This document shows positions 31,452 through 52,609 of a DNA stretch of 64,000 bases, in pieces. Position numbers and translations under genes: made by a program. The notes beneath the pieces were generated by a model. That model saw nothing but the letters and a program-made list of their open reading frames with translations, ran no database searches and had not been told where the DNA came from. Numbering within the stretch: the first letter of the stretch is position 1; each line of letters opens with the position of its first letter. Origin of the DNA: Nitrospirota bacterium (GTDB lineage Bacteria; Nitrospirota; Nitrospiria; SBBL01; JAADHI01). The DNA lies in the NCBI GenBank assembly GCA_029261195.1, contig JAJDBU010000072.1:16168-80167 (forward strand), given 5' to 3'.

Positions 31452-32489
31452 CTATTGTTCCGCCAGGATTGCAGCGCTTTTTTGATGAACCCTATCAATG
31501 ACCGCTTCCACGGCCTCTAAAGGCGTTTCAGGCAAGATGCCGTGGCCTAAGTTGAAGATGTGTCCGGGGCGTTTTCCCGCACGCTTGAGGATGTTATCCA
31601 CCCGTTTTTCAATCTCCGGAATCGGGGCAAAAAGAGTCAGGGGGTCGAGGTTACCCTGGACGGCGACATCGTGTCCTAAGCGATTCCAGGCTTCATCAAG
31701 CTCAACTCGCCAGTCCAGGCCGATGACATCGCCACCGGCCTCTTTTTGCTGATCAAGCAGGGTTGAGGTTCCGGTTCCAAAATGGAGGACCGGCACACCA
31801 AAGGTATGGAGTTCGGTCATGAGTTGTTTCATATGGGGGAAAACGTATCGACGGTAATCTCCGGGAGAAAGGGTGCCAATCCAGCTGTCAAAAATCTGAA
31901 TGGCCTGTGCTCCTGCTTTGACTTGGGCGGCAAGGTAGTCTGCGATGACACGGCCCAGTTTTGACATTAATTGAGTCCAGAGCTCCGGTGCGCCATACAT
32001 CATTTTTTTTGTATGGAGATAGTTTCGGGAAGAGCTGCCTTCGATCATGTAACTGGCCAGGGTAAAAGGCGCCCCTGAAAATCCGATTAAGGGCACATTG
32101 AGGGCGGCGCGAACCTGGCGGATTGACTGGAGCACAAAGGCTAATGATTCTTCGGGTTCAACCGGTTTCAATGCCTCGATATCTTTTTTATCTCGAAGCG
32201 GATTGTGGATGACCGGGCCCTCCCCTTTGACAAACTCAAGATTGAGACCCATCGGCTCTAGCGGCAGCAGGATGTCGGCGAAGATAATTGAGGCGTCAAA
32301 ATCGAAGCGTTCAATCGGTTGCAGGGTGACTTCGGTGGCCAGATCGGGAGTTTTACAGACGGTCAAGAGTGAATGTTTCGCCCGGATGTCACGAAAGGCC
32401 TTCATGTAACGCCCAGCTTGGCGCATAAACCAGACCGGGGTGGCGTCTACCGGTTCACGCCGACAAGCCCTTAAAAATCGATCATTCAT
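31452..32489 (-). CDS. hemE: Uroporphyrinogen decarboxylase
   Basis: 345 residues from the ATG behind TAGGAG; the ORF-track start is 30 codons too early. The N-terminal VWFMRQAGRYMKAFRDIR and the FSGAPFTLASYMIEG and GTGTST segments are HemE signatures. It converts uroporphyrinogen III to coproporphyrinogen III, needed for the many haem proteins encoded nearby. Its presence argues for the classical haem route. Confidence 0.95.
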   Translation of the reverse strand: MNDRFLRACRREPVDATPVWFMRQAGRYMKAFRDIRAKHSLLTVCKTPDLATEVTLQPIERFDFDASIIFADILLPLEPMGLNLEFVKGEGPVIHNPLRDKKDIEALKPVEPEESLAFVLQSIRQVRAALNVPLIGFSGAPFTLASYMIEGSSSRNYLHTKKMMYGAPELWTQLMSKLGRVIADYLAAQVKAGAQAIQIFDSWIGTLSPGDYRRYVFPHMKQLMTELHTFGVPVLHFGTGTSTLLDQQKEAGGDVIGLDWRVELDEAWNRLGHDVAVQGNLDPLTLFAPIPEIEKRVDNILKRAGKRPGHIFNLGHGILPETPLEAVEAVIDRVHQKSAAILAEQ

Positions 32490-32611
32490 TTTTACTCCTA
32501 AGTAATGGTTATCGCTGAGAAAAAGTCGGCGGATTTTAGCACTCCCCTTTGGGGGAGTCAATGACGCTTTGGAAGCCAATTTTCCTGGTTTGAGCCTTCT
32601 AAAAGACTTGT

Positions 32612-46332: not shown

Positions 46333-48987
46333 ATGTATAAATCAATCTATATTCCGGTAGATAACTCAGACTATTCAAATACGGCCATTGATATTGGGAT
46401 GATGCTGGCAAAGCAGTACGGTTCAAAGGTTATTGGAAGCCATGCCTACGCGGCAAAACTGCATGACAAACGTTTCAAGCAAATGGAGGCAGGATTACCG
46501 GAAGAGTACCACGATGAAAATGAGCTGGAACGCCAGCGCAAAATACACGACTCCCTGATTACCCGTGGTCTTGAAATCATCACCGATTCCTATCTCGACA
46601 TCATTGATCAAAAGGCGAATGAGAGCAATGTGCCCATGGAACGGGTGTCCCTGGAGGGAAAAAACTACAAAGTCCTCGTCCAGGACATCGTCAAGAATGG
46701 ATATGATCTGGTTATTTTGGGCGCACTCGGCGTCGGAGCCGTGAGAGAAAGCATGATCGGGAGTGTTTGCGAACGCACGATTCGAAGGGTGCGGAAGTCC
46801 GATATCTTTGTGGTCAAAGAAACCACGGCACCAAAGCCCGGAGAGATGGGGAAAATCGTTGTTGCCATTGATGGCAGTCACCATTCCTTCGGCGGTTTCA
46901 AAACCGCGCTTGCGCTGGCAAAGACCTACAAACTGGAAATGGACGTGATTTCCGCCTTTGATCCCTACTATCATTATGCTGTTTTCAATTCGATCTCCGG
47001 GGTATTGAACGAAGAGGCCGGTAAGGTTTTTCGCTTCAAAGAGCAGGAAAAACTGCATGAAGAGGTGATTGATTCAGGACTCGCGAAGATTTATCAATCT
47101 CACTTGGAAGTCTGCAAAAAATTGGCTGAAGATGCAGAAGTGAAGATTAATACCTCCCTCTTAGATGGAAAACCCTTCGAAAAGGTGTTGCAATATGTCA
47201 AGAAGGAAAGACCTTGGTTGCTCGTGCTCGGTCGGATCGGCGTTCATTCCGATGAAGAGATGGATGTCGGGAGCAACGCTGAAAATCTGATCCGGATGGC
47301 ACCCTGTAATGTTCTGGTTTCCAACAAAACCTACGTCCCGCCGATCGACGCGATTGCAGAATACACGGTTGCCTGGACAGAAGAAGCCTCCAAACGGATG
47401 GAAAAGGTGCCGATCTTTGCGCGAGGCGTTGCCAAGACAGCGGTCTATCGTTATGCGATTGAGAAAGGTTATTCCATTATTACTAACTCGGTTGTTGACG
47501 GTGCGATGGGGGATATCCTTCCGAAATCAGCTGTGGACATGATGAAAAATATTGGAAAAACCCTGGATGAAAAGGGAATCGACCGGGACAAGATGACTTC
47601 TGAAGACAGTGTTTCCGAAACCCTTAAAGGCTCGGGTATCGCCGGCATGATGACGCAGATCGTCGGTGATCGTGATGTCGAACGTGCGGCGAGCTATGAC
47701 GACAAGGCCAAGCTGGATTTTTATCTCTGTAAGGGTTGTGGTTATACGGCAAAAGGGGATCAACCTGTCGAATGTCCTGTTTGTGGCGTAAAGGGCGATC
47801 AATTCCAGTTCATTGATAAATCACTCTTCGAAGCGGCGGCAAAAGCTGAAGGCGGCGTTTCTACAGAAGTCGGTTATGACGGTGTGCCGCTGAACTGGAC
47901 TGAAGATGCCAAAAACATCCTCCGGAAAAACCCTGCGGGATTTGAACGGCGTCGTGCCAAAGCAAAGGTTGAAAAAACGGCCCGGAAGATGGGCTTTCAG
48001 ACGATCTCAAAAGATTTTGCCGTTCGTATTCTTGAAGGCTCGGATTGGGAGGAAATGATGGCTTCCGGTGATGCTCAACAAGCAGAAGATGTGCCCGCCG
48101 CCACTCCAGCAACCCCTCACTTCACTTACAGTGATGAGGCCCAGGCGCGCCTTGAACGGGTGCCTGTGGGTTTCATGCGGGACGCGACGCGTCAGCACGT
48201 TGAAAATCATGCCTTCGCTCAATCAATCAGCCACATCACGCTTGAAGTGGCTGAAGCCGGAATTGCGAAAGCGACGGAGGAGATGACGGCTGTTATGTCA
48301 GGGGCTGAAAGTATCGAGGAAATCAGGAAGAAGATGGCAGCCATGGCCATCGGAAGTGAGCCGACTTTGAAAAAAGAACCGACTAGCTTCCACTTTTGCG
48401 GAATGTGCGGTCACGTCGCAAAAAAAGTGCCCGACAACTGTCCTGTTTGTGATGCGAAGAAGTCTCGATTTATGCTGATGAATGCAGCAAGTGATTATTT
48501 TATCTGCATGGTTTGTAGTCTCGTTGTGGAAGAGGTGGTGCCTGAGCATTGTTCGCTCTGCGGTGCAAATGGCGAATATCACATCCAACTTGAACGGAAA
48601 GAAAGTCCTATAGAACAAGCGCTTGAAGCGATTGCCTGGACTGACGAAGCCAAAGCCATGTTACAAGAGATTCCCGAAGGCTTTATGCGCGAGATGACGC
48701 ATTGGCGTATTGAAGCCGACGCAAGAAAAAAAGGCTTACCTGAAATCGATCCCTCTGTGATTCAGGCGAAGTACCTTCAGTGGAGCCAGGTTTCTCGGCA
48801 GGTTGAGCGGCGCCTCCCCTGGGATGATGAGGCTATCCGTCGTATGAATCTGATCCCTTCCTTTGTTCGCGGGACGGTTGTCGGGGAGATTGAAGCTCAT
48901 GCCGAAGAGCAAAAACTGACACAGGTCACTGCTGAGATTTTAGATCAAGTGACTGCGCAGTGGGCAGAGGCAATGCGCGGGTTTTAA
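46333..48987 (+). CDS. Usp-Usp-PCP_red/rubredoxin mosaic protein
   Basis: 884 residues from the ATG behind AGGGAG; the ORF-track start is 14 codons early. Two Usp domains (2-163, 171-332) are followed by five PCP_red-like domains (348-392, 522-567, 599-645, 769-818, 830-873), each of the form W-x2-[ED]A-x2-[RM][LM]-x3-P-x-[GF]-x-R. Three rubredoxin-like CX2C...CX2C knuckles are interleaved (C466/469/481/484, C689/692/703/706, C725/728/740/743), as in rubrerythrins. There is no signal peptide or membrane segment, so it is cytosolic. PCP_red is known as the C-terminal domain of protochlorophyllide reductase BchB, but no nitrogenase-like reductase subunit is nearby. The function is unknown; an iron-loaded redox sensor, scaffold or electron carrier is possible. 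Confidence 0.85.
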   Translation: MYKSIYIPVDNSDYSNTAIDIGMMLAKQYGSKVIGSHAYAAKLHDKRFKQMEAGLPEEYHDENELERQRKIHDSLITRGLEIITDSYLDIIDQKANESNVPMERVSLEGKNYKVLVQDIVKNGYDLVILGALGVGAVRESMIGSVCERTIRRVRKSDIFVVKETTAPKPGEMGKIVVAIDGSHHSFGGFKTALALAKTYKLEMDVISAFDPYYHYAVFNSISGVLNEEAGKVFRFKEQEKLHEEVIDSGLAKIYQSHLEVCKKLAEDAEVKINTSLLDGKPFEKVLQYVKKERPWLLVLGRIGVHSDEEMDVGSNAENLIRMAPCNVLVSNKTYVPPIDAIAEYTVAWTEEASKRMEKVPIFARGVAKTAVYRYAIEKGYSIITNSVVDGAMGDILPKSAVDMMKNIGKTLDEKGIDRDKMTSEDSVSETLKGSGIAGMMTQIVGDRDVERAASYDDKAKLDFYLCKGCGYTAKGDQPVECPVCGVKGDQFQFIDKSLFEAAAKAEGGVSTEVGYDGVPLNWTEDAKNILRKNPAGFERRRAKAKVEKTARKMGFQTISKDFAVRILEGSDWEEMMASGDAQQAEDVPAATPATPHFTYSDEAQARLERVPVGFMRDATRQHVENHAFAQSISHITLEVAEAGIAKATEEMTAVMSGAESIEEIRKKMAAMAIGSEPTLKKEPTSFHFCGMCGHVAKKVPDNCPVCDAKKSRFMLMNAASDYFICMVCSLVVEEVVPEHCSLCGANGEYHIQLERKESPIEQALEAIAWTDEAKAMLQEIPEGFMREMTHWRIEADARKKGLPEIDPSVIQAKYLQWSQVSRQVERRLPWDDEAIRRMNLIPSFVRGTVVGEIEAHAEEQKLTQVTAEILDQVTAQWAEAMRGF

Positions 48988-49028: not shown

Positions 49029-49073
49029 AAGGGTCTGTAATACAGATATCATGTGTTATAGACCCTTGTTTTA
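49029..49073 (+). terminator. Hairpin between the Usp/PCP_red and radical SAM genes
   Basis: AAGGGTCT and AGACCCTT with further inner pairs (TAA/TTA) form a stem followed by GTTTT. It may be a terminator or a partial one that lowers expression of the downstream radical SAM gene, which starts 14 bp later with no promoter seen. Confidence 0.6.
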
Positions 49074-49086
49074 GAAAGGCAATACT

Positions 49087-50475
49087 ATGGCCTACCAGGC
49101 CTACTCGATCTCCTGGAATCTGACGCAGCGCTGCAATCTTTTCTGTACGCACTGCTACCTCAGTGCATTTCCAGGTGCCGATACCTCGAATGAATTGAGT
49201 ACGGAAGAATGTTTCAGGGTGATGGATGACATTGCCAAGGTCAATCCGGATGTCTTCATGATCCTTACAGGTGGGGAGCCTCTGGTTCGTAAAGATATAT
49301 TCGATATTGCCGCCTATGGCTCCGACAAGGGCTTCACTTGTGTTCTCGGAACGAATGGGGTTCTGGTTGGAAAAACGGAAGCTCGCAAGATGCGGGAAAG
49401 TGGACTGATGGGGGCTTCAATCAGTCTTGACTCGGTCGATCCCGTCAAACACGATCAATTTCGTCAGCTTCAAGGCTCCTGGAGAAATGCTCTGCGTGGC
49501 ATTGAGTATCTCAAAGAGGAAGGTCTTGATTTTTCCATCCATATGAGTGTGATGGATTGGAATGTCAGTGAAATTCCTAAGATGGTCGAATTGTCCCGAA
49601 AACTCGGGGCCAAAATCCTCAACTTCTTTTTTCTTATTCAGACCGGTCGCGCCGAAGGCATTATTGATATCGATCCGCGTCAATATAGAGAGATTCTGAC
49701 CTATCTCGCCCGGATGCAGGGTGTTGGCTCACAAGACGCGAACAGCAACGCACAGATCTTGACGCAATATGATGACCCCTGGACGGTTTCTGCCGGTCAA
49801 AACGATGGTCTGATTATCCGGGCAAAATGTGCCCCACACTTTCGACGCATCATCTATGAACTAGATCCGAATTCTCAATTACTGAAAAACTACGCACAGG
49901 GAAGCTGCCCTGCAGGCAAACATTATTGCCGCATCACTCCCACTGGAGAGATCACGCCCTGTCCCTATATGCCGGTGACGGCGGGAAACCTGAGAGAACA
50001 ATCCTTCGATGATATTTGGTACAACTCGCCGGTACTCAATGATCTGAGAGACCCCAATCTGGGTGGACGCTGCGGAGACTGTGAATTTTCAGAGATGTGC
50101 AGCGGCTGTCGTTGTCGCGCTTATGCGGTGCATGAAGATTATCTTGCGGAAGATGCCGCCTGCGATTATCAACCGGGACAATATGGGGGAAAGAAGATCC
50201 GGATGGATGCTTCACAAACCTTCGGCTTGGAACTGAAAACCACCCTGCCCTGGGATGATGCTGCGCGTGAACGATTAAAAGGTCTGCCCTCTTTTGCCCG
50301 AGGCATGGTTGCGCGAGGTGTGGAGCAGTATGCCACAGACAATAAGATTGAATTGATTACCGTGGACGTCATGAAGGTTGTTCGAGAGCGGGCTGAGGCT
50401 CGTATGGGACGTCGTTTTAACTTTACTGAATTTAATCGGAGCGTTTCAGAAAAAACAACTCCGAACAAGAACTGA
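49087..50475 (+). CDS. Radical SAM/SPASM enzyme with C-terminal PCP_red domain
   Basis: 462 residues. The radical SAM cluster is CNLFCTHC (C16, C20, C23), with LTGGEP for SAM binding. The segment NFFFLIQTGRAEG resembles the AhbC/AhbD/NirJ haem-modifying group. A SPASM-like Cys set for auxiliary Fe-S clusters lies at 274-359 (CPAGKHYC, CPYMP, CGDCEFSEMCSGCRC). Residues 388-435 are one PCP_red domain (PWDDAARERLKGLPSFARG). It probably modifies a tetrapyrrole or a peptide; which is unknown. Its PCP_red tail ties it to the genes on both sides. GAAAGG precedes the ATG. Confidence 0.85.
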   Translation: MAYQAYSISWNLTQRCNLFCTHCYLSAFPGADTSNELSTEECFRVMDDIAKVNPDVFMILTGGEPLVRKDIFDIAAYGSDKGFTCVLGTNGVLVGKTEARKMRESGLMGASISLDSVDPVKHDQFRQLQGSWRNALRGIEYLKEEGLDFSIHMSVMDWNVSEIPKMVELSRKLGAKILNFFFLIQTGRAEGIIDIDPRQYREILTYLARMQGVGSQDANSNAQILTQYDDPWTVSAGQNDGLIIRAKCAPHFRRIIYELDPNSQLLKNYAQGSCPAGKHYCRITPTGEITPCPYMPVTAGNLREQSFDDIWYNSPVLNDLRDPNLGGRCGDCEFSEMCSGCRCRAYAVHEDYLAEDAACDYQPGQYGGKKIRMDASQTFGLELKTTLPWDDAARERLKGLPSFARGMVARGVEQYATDNKIELITVDVMKVVRERAEARMGRRFNFTEFNRSVSEKTTPNKN

Positions 50476-50488
50476 AAGGCCGTCTGCT

Positions 50489-51487
50489 ATGTTTGGATCA
50501 AAACAAAAAGAGAACGAAAATCCGATTACCTGGACACCTGAGGCGGAGATACGTTTAAAAAAAGCCCCCTTCTTCCTACGTAAAATGGTCCGGAATCTAT
50601 CGGAGAAAAAGGCTGCCGAATTGGGGATCACAGTGATTACGGAAGAGGTTCTTGCACAATTTAAAGACAAGATGATGACGCCGATGGCGAATGAAGGGAC
50701 GACTGCGGTTCATGAAACCGCGGGAGTCGAAACAAAAGCGCTCGCCTGGACCCGAGAAGCCCAGGAAAGGCTGGACACTGTTCCGGAATTTATGCGGTCC
50801 ATGATTAAAAAGATTGCAGAAGAGGTCGCCCTCGAACGTGGGCACCTTGAAGTGGACATGGACCTGCTCAAAAAAGCAGAGGAGCTGGGAGAGAAAACGG
50901 AAGATCAGACTCGACCTGAGATTGAATGGACCGATGCCGCAAAACTACGACTTGAACAAAAAATTGCAGAATCTCCGGAGATGGCCCGTAACTTCGTTCT
51001 GGATATGTTAAAAAATGACGCCGAAGATCTTGCTCTGGAAATGGGAATCACTCGAATCGATCTGGCTGCAGCAACACAGATTTGGGATGCGCCGAAATCG
51101 GATGTCGCATGGAGTGAAGAAGCCAGAAAACGCCTCATGACCTCTCCCGACTTTGTTCGGAGCGGCATCAAAAAGGCGGCGGAACGGCGAGCCCGAAAAC
51201 TGGGTGTCACGACGGTGACTTCAGAACTACTGACCAAGTTTCGCAATGAAGCCATGATGAAGGCGATGAAACGGCTCCGCGTCTACGGATATGATGAAAT
51301 GACCTTTGATGCCTTTGAAGACGCAAAGGAAAAGACCCCACGACTCAAAGACAATACAGAGGCCGCAAAACGTTTGGATGACATTAAATGTTACATGGAA
51401 AACAAAGGGGACATTGGACTGATCGATGAAGAGATGCTTGATCGTATGAAGGATTATTTAAAAGATCCTTCAAAGAAAAAGATGTAG
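50489..51487 (+). CDS. Tandem PCP_red protein (four copies)
   Basis: 332 residues from the ATG 13 bp after the radical SAM stop; the ORF-track start lies inside that gene and is wrong. Four PCP_red-like domains fill most of it (15-58, 87-130, 147-197, 208-252), each beginning W-[TS]-x2-A and ending with a GIT-like strand and a helix. The third has a 5-residue insertion. The last 80 residues are a charged helical tail. There is only one Cys, no rubredoxin knuckle, no signal peptide and no catalytic motif that I can see. It looks like a scaffold or binding protein. I know of no characterised protein made only of this domain. Confidence 0.8.
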   Translation: MFGSKQKENENPITWTPEAEIRLKKAPFFLRKMVRNLSEKKAAELGITVITEEVLAQFKDKMMTPMANEGTTAVHETAGVETKALAWTREAQERLDTVPEFMRSMIKKIAEEVALERGHLEVDMDLLKKAEELGEKTEDQTRPEIEWTDAAKLRLEQKIAESPEMARNFVLDMLKNDAEDLALEMGITRIDLAAATQIWDAPKSDVAWSEEARKRLMTSPDFVRSGIKKAAERRARKLGVTTVTSELLTKFRNEAMMKAMKRLRVYGYDEMTFDAFEDAKEKTPRLKDNTEAAKRLDDIKCYMENKGDIGLIDEEMLDRMKDYLKDPSKKKM

Positions 51488-51518: not shown

Positions 51519-51977
51519 ATGAATTTTTCCGCCGTCATCGCGCATTGGTTGCATCTCATGTCGGCTATTATCTGGATCGGAGCAGCGGCCTATCAGGTCT
51601 TTGTTCTGGGTCCCCTGATCAAAAAGGGAACCCTTCCTAAAGCGATGGTTGCATCGCTTGCAAAGCGTTATCGCCATGTCTCTCTGACGACCTTGCTTGT
51701 CCTGGTCGTGACAGGGGGAATTAATCTCAAGACCCGCCGTCTGGGATTCGATTCGGTGCCGGGCGGTTATATTTCCGCGCTTGCTGTTAAGGTTTTTATT
51801 GCCGTGGCCATGGCTTCGGGCCTGGTTTTCGGCATGATCCGTTCTTCGAATAAATACGATGATGAATTGAAGAAGGAGGACGGCCCTCCGAACTTCGGCG
51901 CTAATAAAGTGACCCTTGCTATGGGTACCATCGTGATCTTTCTTGCCGCCATGCTGAGACAGTGGGTATCAGAGTAA
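51519..51977 (+). CDS. CopD-like four-helix membrane protein
   Basis: 152 residues behind GGGAG. Four hydrophobic helices, the first with H-x2-H-L (AHWLHLMSAIIWIG) as in the CopD superfamily and related haem-b or copper membrane proteins. Helix 2 holds RYRHVSLTTLLVLVVTGG. It follows the PCP_red genes by 31 bp and overlaps the next gene. Cofactor unknown; His residues could hold a haem or copper and connect the cluster to the membrane. Confidence 0.75.
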   Translation: MNFSAVIAHWLHLMSAIIWIGAAAYQVFVLGPLIKKGTLPKAMVASLAKRYRHVSLTTLLVLVVTGGINLKTRRLGFDSVPGGYISALAVKVFIAVAMASGLVFGMIRSSNKYDDELKKEDGPPNFGANKVTLAMGTIVIFLAAMLRQWVSE

Positions 51978-52609
51978 GAACGGCTTCCAATCCTCTGCAA
52001 TCGCCAGAGAGACTTTTTTTTCTACGGCAATCTATTCGATCTCTTCCGTATCTTTTTCTAAGTGTTATTCTATTCTTCTCCGTCCCTCAAACTTCTTTTG
52101 CGATCCATGCCATCATTAAAGATGGGGAGGCCGTTCCTAGAAGCTACGGTCCACTTATCCTGGGGATGTCTCTAAAATCCTTTTTGGAAACAGAGGGAGA
52201 AAAAAAGGAGCAACCTATGGCAATTGGACAGTTTGCAGATGAGCATCAATACAAACTCGCAGCCCTTCCGTCCTCTCCCGATATTTTAAACATTGTCTGT
52301 GACTTTTATCAGGGAAAGCTCTTTCGTATTGAACTGAACTATCACCCGCTTAAAACCGGAGGGGCCATTGTTCAGGAGCGCATTGATGAATGGACAATCC
52401 GATTCGGTGAACCGCGGGTCAACAATTTCCCAGACGTCCTTCTGGTCTTCTGGGACGATGGTGCCACACGAATGATCTTGCAGTCGGATGAGTCGGAGGG
52501 CTCGACCCTCTATTCCATCACCTATATTGACGATGACCTCTTTCATCTTTTTAGTCGGGAGCGGGTTCAGCGGGAGACCGCCGGTCAGTCAAATTATGGA
52601 AAAAAGTAA
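51962..52609 (+). CDS. Secreted hypothetical protein
   Basis: 215 residues from a GTG overlapping the CopD-like stop by 16 bp. A long positively charged leader and hydrophobic segment (about 27-46, ending FAIHA) suggest a signal peptide; a later start is possible. The mature part is mixed alpha/beta with one Cys and segments such as GPLILGMSLKSF and YHPLKTGGAIV. I do not recognise the family. It may belong to the same transcript as the PCP_red genes. Confidence 0.6.
   Translation: MGIRVRTASNPLQSPERLFFLRQSIRSLPYLFLSVILFFSVPQTSFAIHAIIKDGEAVPRSYGPLILGMSLKSFLETEGEKKEQPMAIGQFADEHQYKLAALPSSPDILNIVCDFYQGKLFRIELNYHPLKTGGAIVQERIDEWTIRFGEPRVNNFPDVLLVFWDDGATRMILQSDESEGSTLYSITYIDDDLFHLFSRERVQRETAGQSNYGKK

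Follow-up and report, generated by a model that had tools for sequence, protein, structure and literature searches.

The gene at positions 49087..50475 (+) of the window, a 64,000-nucleotide stretch of DNA from a Nitrospirota bacterium, raises the question of what a radical SAM/SPASM enzyme does with a PCP_red domain at its C-terminus and with PCP_red proteins encoded on both sides of it. The initial annotation described the protein as having features of AhbC, AhbD, and NirJ followed by PCP_red, and it proposed that the tail might dock the enzyme on its two neighbors. Pfam matches bear out the domain make-up. The predicted protein has 462 amino acids, starts with ATG, and is part of a conserved clade. 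It contains Radical_SAM (residues 11-169, 87 bits), SPASM (residues 274-333, 43.4 bits versus a cut-off of 21.5), and PCP_red (PF08369; residues 389-430, 50251..50376, +, 43.1 bits versus a curated gathering cut-off of 32.5). All three domains score above the Pfam cut-offs, placing the protein in the radical SAM superfamily and among the SPASM-type auxiliary cluster and PCP_red proteins. The radical SAM cluster motif CX3CX2C consists of C16, C20, and C23 (49132..49155, +), and a GGEP motif lies within the Radical_SAM domain. Eight auxiliary cysteines are found at C248 (in a CAPH motif), C274, C292, C329, C332, C338, C341, and C359 (49828..50163, +). In an alignment of the tail-bearing relatives all eight are invariant, as are the three cluster cysteines and the GGE of GGEP. 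The AF2 model has a confident core, a low-confidence linker, and then a helical tail, with a mean pLDDT of 82.5. Its nearest solved folds by Foldseek are PqqE, SkfB, and SuiB, a ranking that mainly mirrors which SPASM enzymes have solved structures.

On sequence evidence the tail-bearing proteins make up a widespread family without a name, whose members are haem-pathway-type radical enzymes of the AhbD/NirJ2 type. The best NCBIfam match of the window's protein is NirJ2 (TIGR04055, a putative haem d1 biosynthesis radical SAM protein) with 315 bits against a cut-off of 500, and the AhbD haem b synthase profile (TIGR04545) gives 300 bits against an equivalog cut-off of 500. The AhbC and NirJ profiles give 183 and 190 bits against cut-offs of 650 and 515, and among the matches listed the protein is under the cut-off of each peptide-maturase family (RiPP-maturing SPASM). 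A maximum-likelihood tree was built on the core only, with the PCP_red tail excluded. The tail-bearing proteins form one clade (SH-aLRT 99-100) that is sister to NirJ2 in the best tree (SH-aLRT 89-91), with an AU p of 0.62 for a grouping with AhbD instead, and AhbC and NirJ are distant from it. The radical SAM phylogeny suggested in the initial annotation therefore puts the clade beside NirJ2 and AhbD. Membership in AhbD, NirJ2, AhbC, or NirJ was rejected by the cut-offs and the tree.

The cysteines give a similar picture. The tail family, AhbD, and NirJ2 have the same eight auxiliary cysteines, and AhbD shares the CAPH motif as well. AhbC and NirJ have four: they share the radical SAM motif and a CX2CX5CX20-21C auxiliary motif with the tail family but are without C248, C274, C292, and C341. 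The window's protein contains this motif as CX2CX5CX20C, the same as NirJ (PMC10548856). Of the likeness first proposed, the AhbD part holds and extends to NirJ2 on the basis of HMM scores, tree, and cysteines, while the AhbC and NirJ parts do not fit the scores or the cysteine set. The tail family also differs from its nearest relatives. The NirJ2 proteins examined have no PCP_red tail, and AhbD forms a separate clade. In the strand NFFFLIQTGR (residues 179-188, 49621..49650, +), residue 185 is proline in every AhbD and NirJ2 protein compared, but 49 of the 61 tail proteins have cysteine there, and the window's protein and its order have glutamine.

The tail is kept throughout the family. It is present in every relative whose full open reading frame was checked, and PCP_red was found at 48 of 48 tail-family loci in a cross-phylum scan of one genome per species, so chance fusion is excluded. 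The initial annotation named clear placement in a characterized family whose normal members all carry the tail as a point against its idea; all members do carry it, but the family is uncharacterized. A survey of 246 genomes of the phylum Nitrospirota showed the family throughout the window's class, where only three genomes lack it. Tail-bearing members were found in Nitrospirota, Nitrospinota, Brocadia and other Planctomycetota, Rokubacteria, Gemmatimonadota, Alpha- and Gammaproteobacteria, and Chloroflexi. Plasmid records contained distant relatives only.

Upstream of the radical SAM gene is an 884-amino acid protein (46333..48987, +) with two Usp, five PCP_red, and two rubredoxin-like domains by Pfam. 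Downstream is a 332-amino acid PCP_red-only protein (50489..51487, +) with three Pfam matches over threshold and one weak one. The presence of PCP_red in both neighbors, as first noted, is thus supported by Pfam, and the proposed link to the Usp/PCP_red protein is backed by 32 of 43 loci in which a member of the same Usp gene family lies directly upstream of the radical SAM gene. The four-repeat PCP_red-only protein is mostly restricted to the window's order, and therefore it is no general partner. Next comes a small hydrophobic protein of 152 amino acids (51519..51977, +), probably multi-pass membrane and by weak matches CopD-like, a counterpart of which follows the radical SAM gene in many Nitrospiria loci. 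An uncharacterized protein (51962..52609, +) is also part of this cassette in other members of the order, with 42-49% identity. An inverted repeat, AAGGGTCT/AGACCCTT, lies just upstream of the radical SAM gene (49029-49067), where a gap of roughly 100 bp follows the Usp gene; the Usp and radical SAM genes of one relative (L039) touch. Mostly in Proteobacteria, a protoporphyrinogen oxidase (PPO) gene is found 3' of the radical SAM gene (14 of 48 loci), in most cases with a 4-bp overlap, which is the usual arrangement in Proteobacteria. Three of these were tested and scored 230-286 bits with TIGR00562 (cut-off 97.85). In the same scan a PPO gene was near only 1 of 32 tail-less relatives. Two of the genomes (G049 and G008) have a second PPO besides, beside their hemN and hemH genes. 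The gene overlap suggests that the radical SAM enzyme takes part in synthesis.

PCP_red is found in other proteins related to tetrapyrroles. By sequence, the C-terminal domain of BchB/ChlB, the dark protochlorophyllide reductase, is PCP_red; its position is the same as in the tail family, but BchB/ChlB is a nitrogenase-like enzyme without a radical SAM domain. In f16 genomes (L018 and L019; G006 and G016) PCP_red is fused to an AhbD that scores 489 bits against the cut-off of 500. This AhbD lineage gained its tail independently of the main clade (AU p 0.0002), and the same test ruled out one shared origin for all PCP_red tails. In f19 genomes, which are without the radical SAM-tail enzyme, PCP_red is fused N-terminally to a chlorite dismutase/HemQ-family domain (L267, L268, and L269; G028, G037, and G010). 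One further protein (L270 in G184, 826-1653) combines a NIR_SIR domain of the sirohaem reductase type with PCP_red and ferredoxin-like clusters. Because these fusion partners work on tetrapyrroles or belong to families that do, PCP_red appears to be a tetrapyrrole-handling module, and we infer from this pattern of partners that it may bind a tetrapyrrole. A text search for PCP_red found nothing relevant.

These fusions also bear on the docking idea. The enzyme might dock on its neighbors by PCP_red-to-PCP_red contact, but the partners BchB, AhbD, HemQ-type, and NIR_SIR speak for the handling of tetrapyrroles more than for docking of one tail on another. A model close to the first proposal has a SPASM enzyme that modifies peptides or proteins and uses its tail to dock on the PCP_red proteins. 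Such an enzyme would fit the SPASM domain, the solved folds nearest to the model, and the conserved partner next door with the same domain. We regard it as very improbable, since the tree and the cysteine set group the enzyme with tetrapyrrole enzymes, and the coupling to PPO and the four kinds of fusion would be left unaccounted for.

Several other PCP_red genes were observed. Some Nitrospirota families without the radical SAM-tail protein carry the PCP_red-HemQ-family fusion. Cytochrome 579 of Leptospirillum has an unusual haem (PMC8126622), and a connection between this haem and the fusion-bearing families, whose identity as Leptospirillum is tentative, is a lead. In the window's genome a two-PCP_red protein, an Mrp-like ATPase, and a haem-oxygenase-like/CADD protein are encoded together (L059 in G000:C55, 8561-11003), and parts of this set recur at three other loci (L055, L231, and L233). 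B12-binding radical SAM genes with a BchE-like domain order (L050 and L222) adjoin the Usp/PCP cassette in Nitrospira and, in f26 genomes, the gene for a small PCP_red protein.

The distribution of the family is linked to OR-N type CydAA' cytochrome bd-like oxidases, which are different and themselves uncharacterized proteins. Canonical bd oxidases are not known to require genes of this kind, a point against a haem-making role of the family for these oxidases. The OR-N oxidases, named here as in PMC12342949 and PMC10839748, are regarded as the principal terminal oxidases in Nitrospira and Nitrospinota, with cofactors and function unconfirmed (PMC10839748, PMC12342949). They were assigned by their resemblance to the bd-like genes that Nitrospiria and Nitrospinota carry in several copies. 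In 10 of 48 tail loci an OR-N type CydA lies no more than about 6 kb away, accompanied by cytochrome c/EB_dh genes. The 32 tail-less control loci had no convincing CydA (two weak matches, 35-37 bits) and no EB_dh. Two genomes (G049 and G268) have contiguous runs of CydA, cytochromes c, Usp/PCP, and radical SAM/PCP genes, in some cases followed by PPO. In the window there is no oxidase beside the radical SAM gene; four OR-N CydA-like genes are on other contigs of its genome (L294-L297; G000 C75, C64, C55, and C77), and cytochrome c and EB_dh genes accompany two of the four.

Whole genomes show the same association, counted over genomes that are not independent and include many MAG records. Of 26 tail-family genomes from outside Nitrospiria, 24 have OR-N CydA, compared with none of 24 genomes with tail-less relatives, a zero that leaves out three matches near 1e-11 (Fisher p 3e-12). 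In the window's class both OR-N and the tail family are nearly universal. In Nitrospirota outside the class, PCP_red occurs in 23 of 24 OR-N genomes versus 23 of the 133 genomes without OR-N (p 7e-14). Almost every genome in this second group of 23 has one copy only; the copies that were read belong to a HemQ fusion, a NIR_SIR fusion, a small protein, or, for G228, the radical SAM tail. Three within-genus pairs of genomes (G156/G107, G176/G158, and G150/G134) consist of one with both OR-N and PCP_red and one with neither. Four genomes (G008, G228, G258, and G269) have the radical SAM-tail protein and no OR-N match, an absence that is unsure in these drafts. Part of the co-occurrence may reflect the type of respiration, as the tail-less controls are mostly anaerobes.

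The association could also arise if the proteins handled, inserted, or checked the quality of haem for OR-N oxidases, with the radical SAM protein acting as a carrier or assembly factor that leaves the haem unchanged. The Usp/PCP_red and PCP_red-repeat proteins are carrier-like, and the Brocadia oxidase operon contains a Usp/PCP gene. Some haem-related radical SAM proteins, such as HemW, are insertion factors. However, the invariant CX3CX2C, GGEP, and eight auxiliary cysteines exceed the needs of a carrier, and the overlap with PPO genes favors synthesis. This explanation is quite unlikely in our view.

The enzyme is not needed for haem b. As first noted, a hemE gene is encoded elsewhere in the window (31452-32579, -; TIGR01464, 443 bits versus a cut-off of 303). 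The genome encodes hemE, PPO, HemH, and HemQ, which make up the coproporphyrin route, and therefore the radical SAM-tail enzyme is dispensable for haem b. The early suggestion that it need not be for haem itself is consistent with this separate route. No HemN over the cut-off was found in the window's genome. Elsewhere the tail family coexists with HemN (G131, G049, and G008) or with AhbD over or near its cut-off (G002, G021, and G006), and haem b synthesis by this enzyme was dropped as a candidate function. A related explanation is that it carries out the oxygen-independent last decarboxylation of ordinary haem synthesis at low oxygen, as AhbD or HemN would, and that the OR-N link is secondary because both would fit a microaerobic way of life. 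AhbD and NirJ2 are the nearest relatives, PCP_red is fused to AhbD and HemQ-family domains, whose families act on coproheme, and HemN over the cut-off is missing here, all of which would fit. We nevertheless consider it unlikely, as members coexist with HemN and AhbD, the proline at 185 is replaced by cysteine or glutamine in most of the family, and an extra dedicated PPO would be needless.

On balance we favor a role for this haem-pathway-type radical SAM enzyme in making or preparing a haem dedicated to OR-N oxidases, in which PCP_red would be the tetrapyrrole-handling module. The basis for this is the domain make-up, the clade, the cysteine set, the neighborhoods, the co-occurrence, the fusion partners, and the separate haem b route. 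From these we infer a substrate, a reaction, and a product distinct from haem b. The enzyme would act on a side chain of an iron-porphyrin or its precursor, with propionate the likeliest target by analogy with AhbD and NirJ (PMC10548856). It would belong to a small tetrapyrrole pathway whose other members are the Usp/PCP_red protein and a protoporphyrinogen oxidase dedicated to this pathway; in Nitrospiria the CopD-like small membrane protein may stand in place of the oxidase. The OR-N type cytochrome bd-like oxidases would receive the haem that the pathway makes or prepares. PCP_red would be a binding or hand-over module that presents the substrate on the enzyme, and on the repeat proteins it may carry or store the tetrapyrrole. 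More tentatively, nitrifiers, anammox bacteria, and their relatives might make an undescribed haem as the cofactor of OR-N terminal oxidases, by a dedicated pathway consisting of the PCP_red radical SAM enzyme, PCP_red carriers, and the dedicated protoporphyrinogen oxidase.

Although PCP_red is known chiefly for its occurrence in chlorophyll synthesis, the proposed function would make it a module for handling tetrapyrroles in general. A family that co-occurs with OR-N oxidases across phyla and has the look of a haem-modifying enzyme may also provide a handle on which haem these oxidases use.
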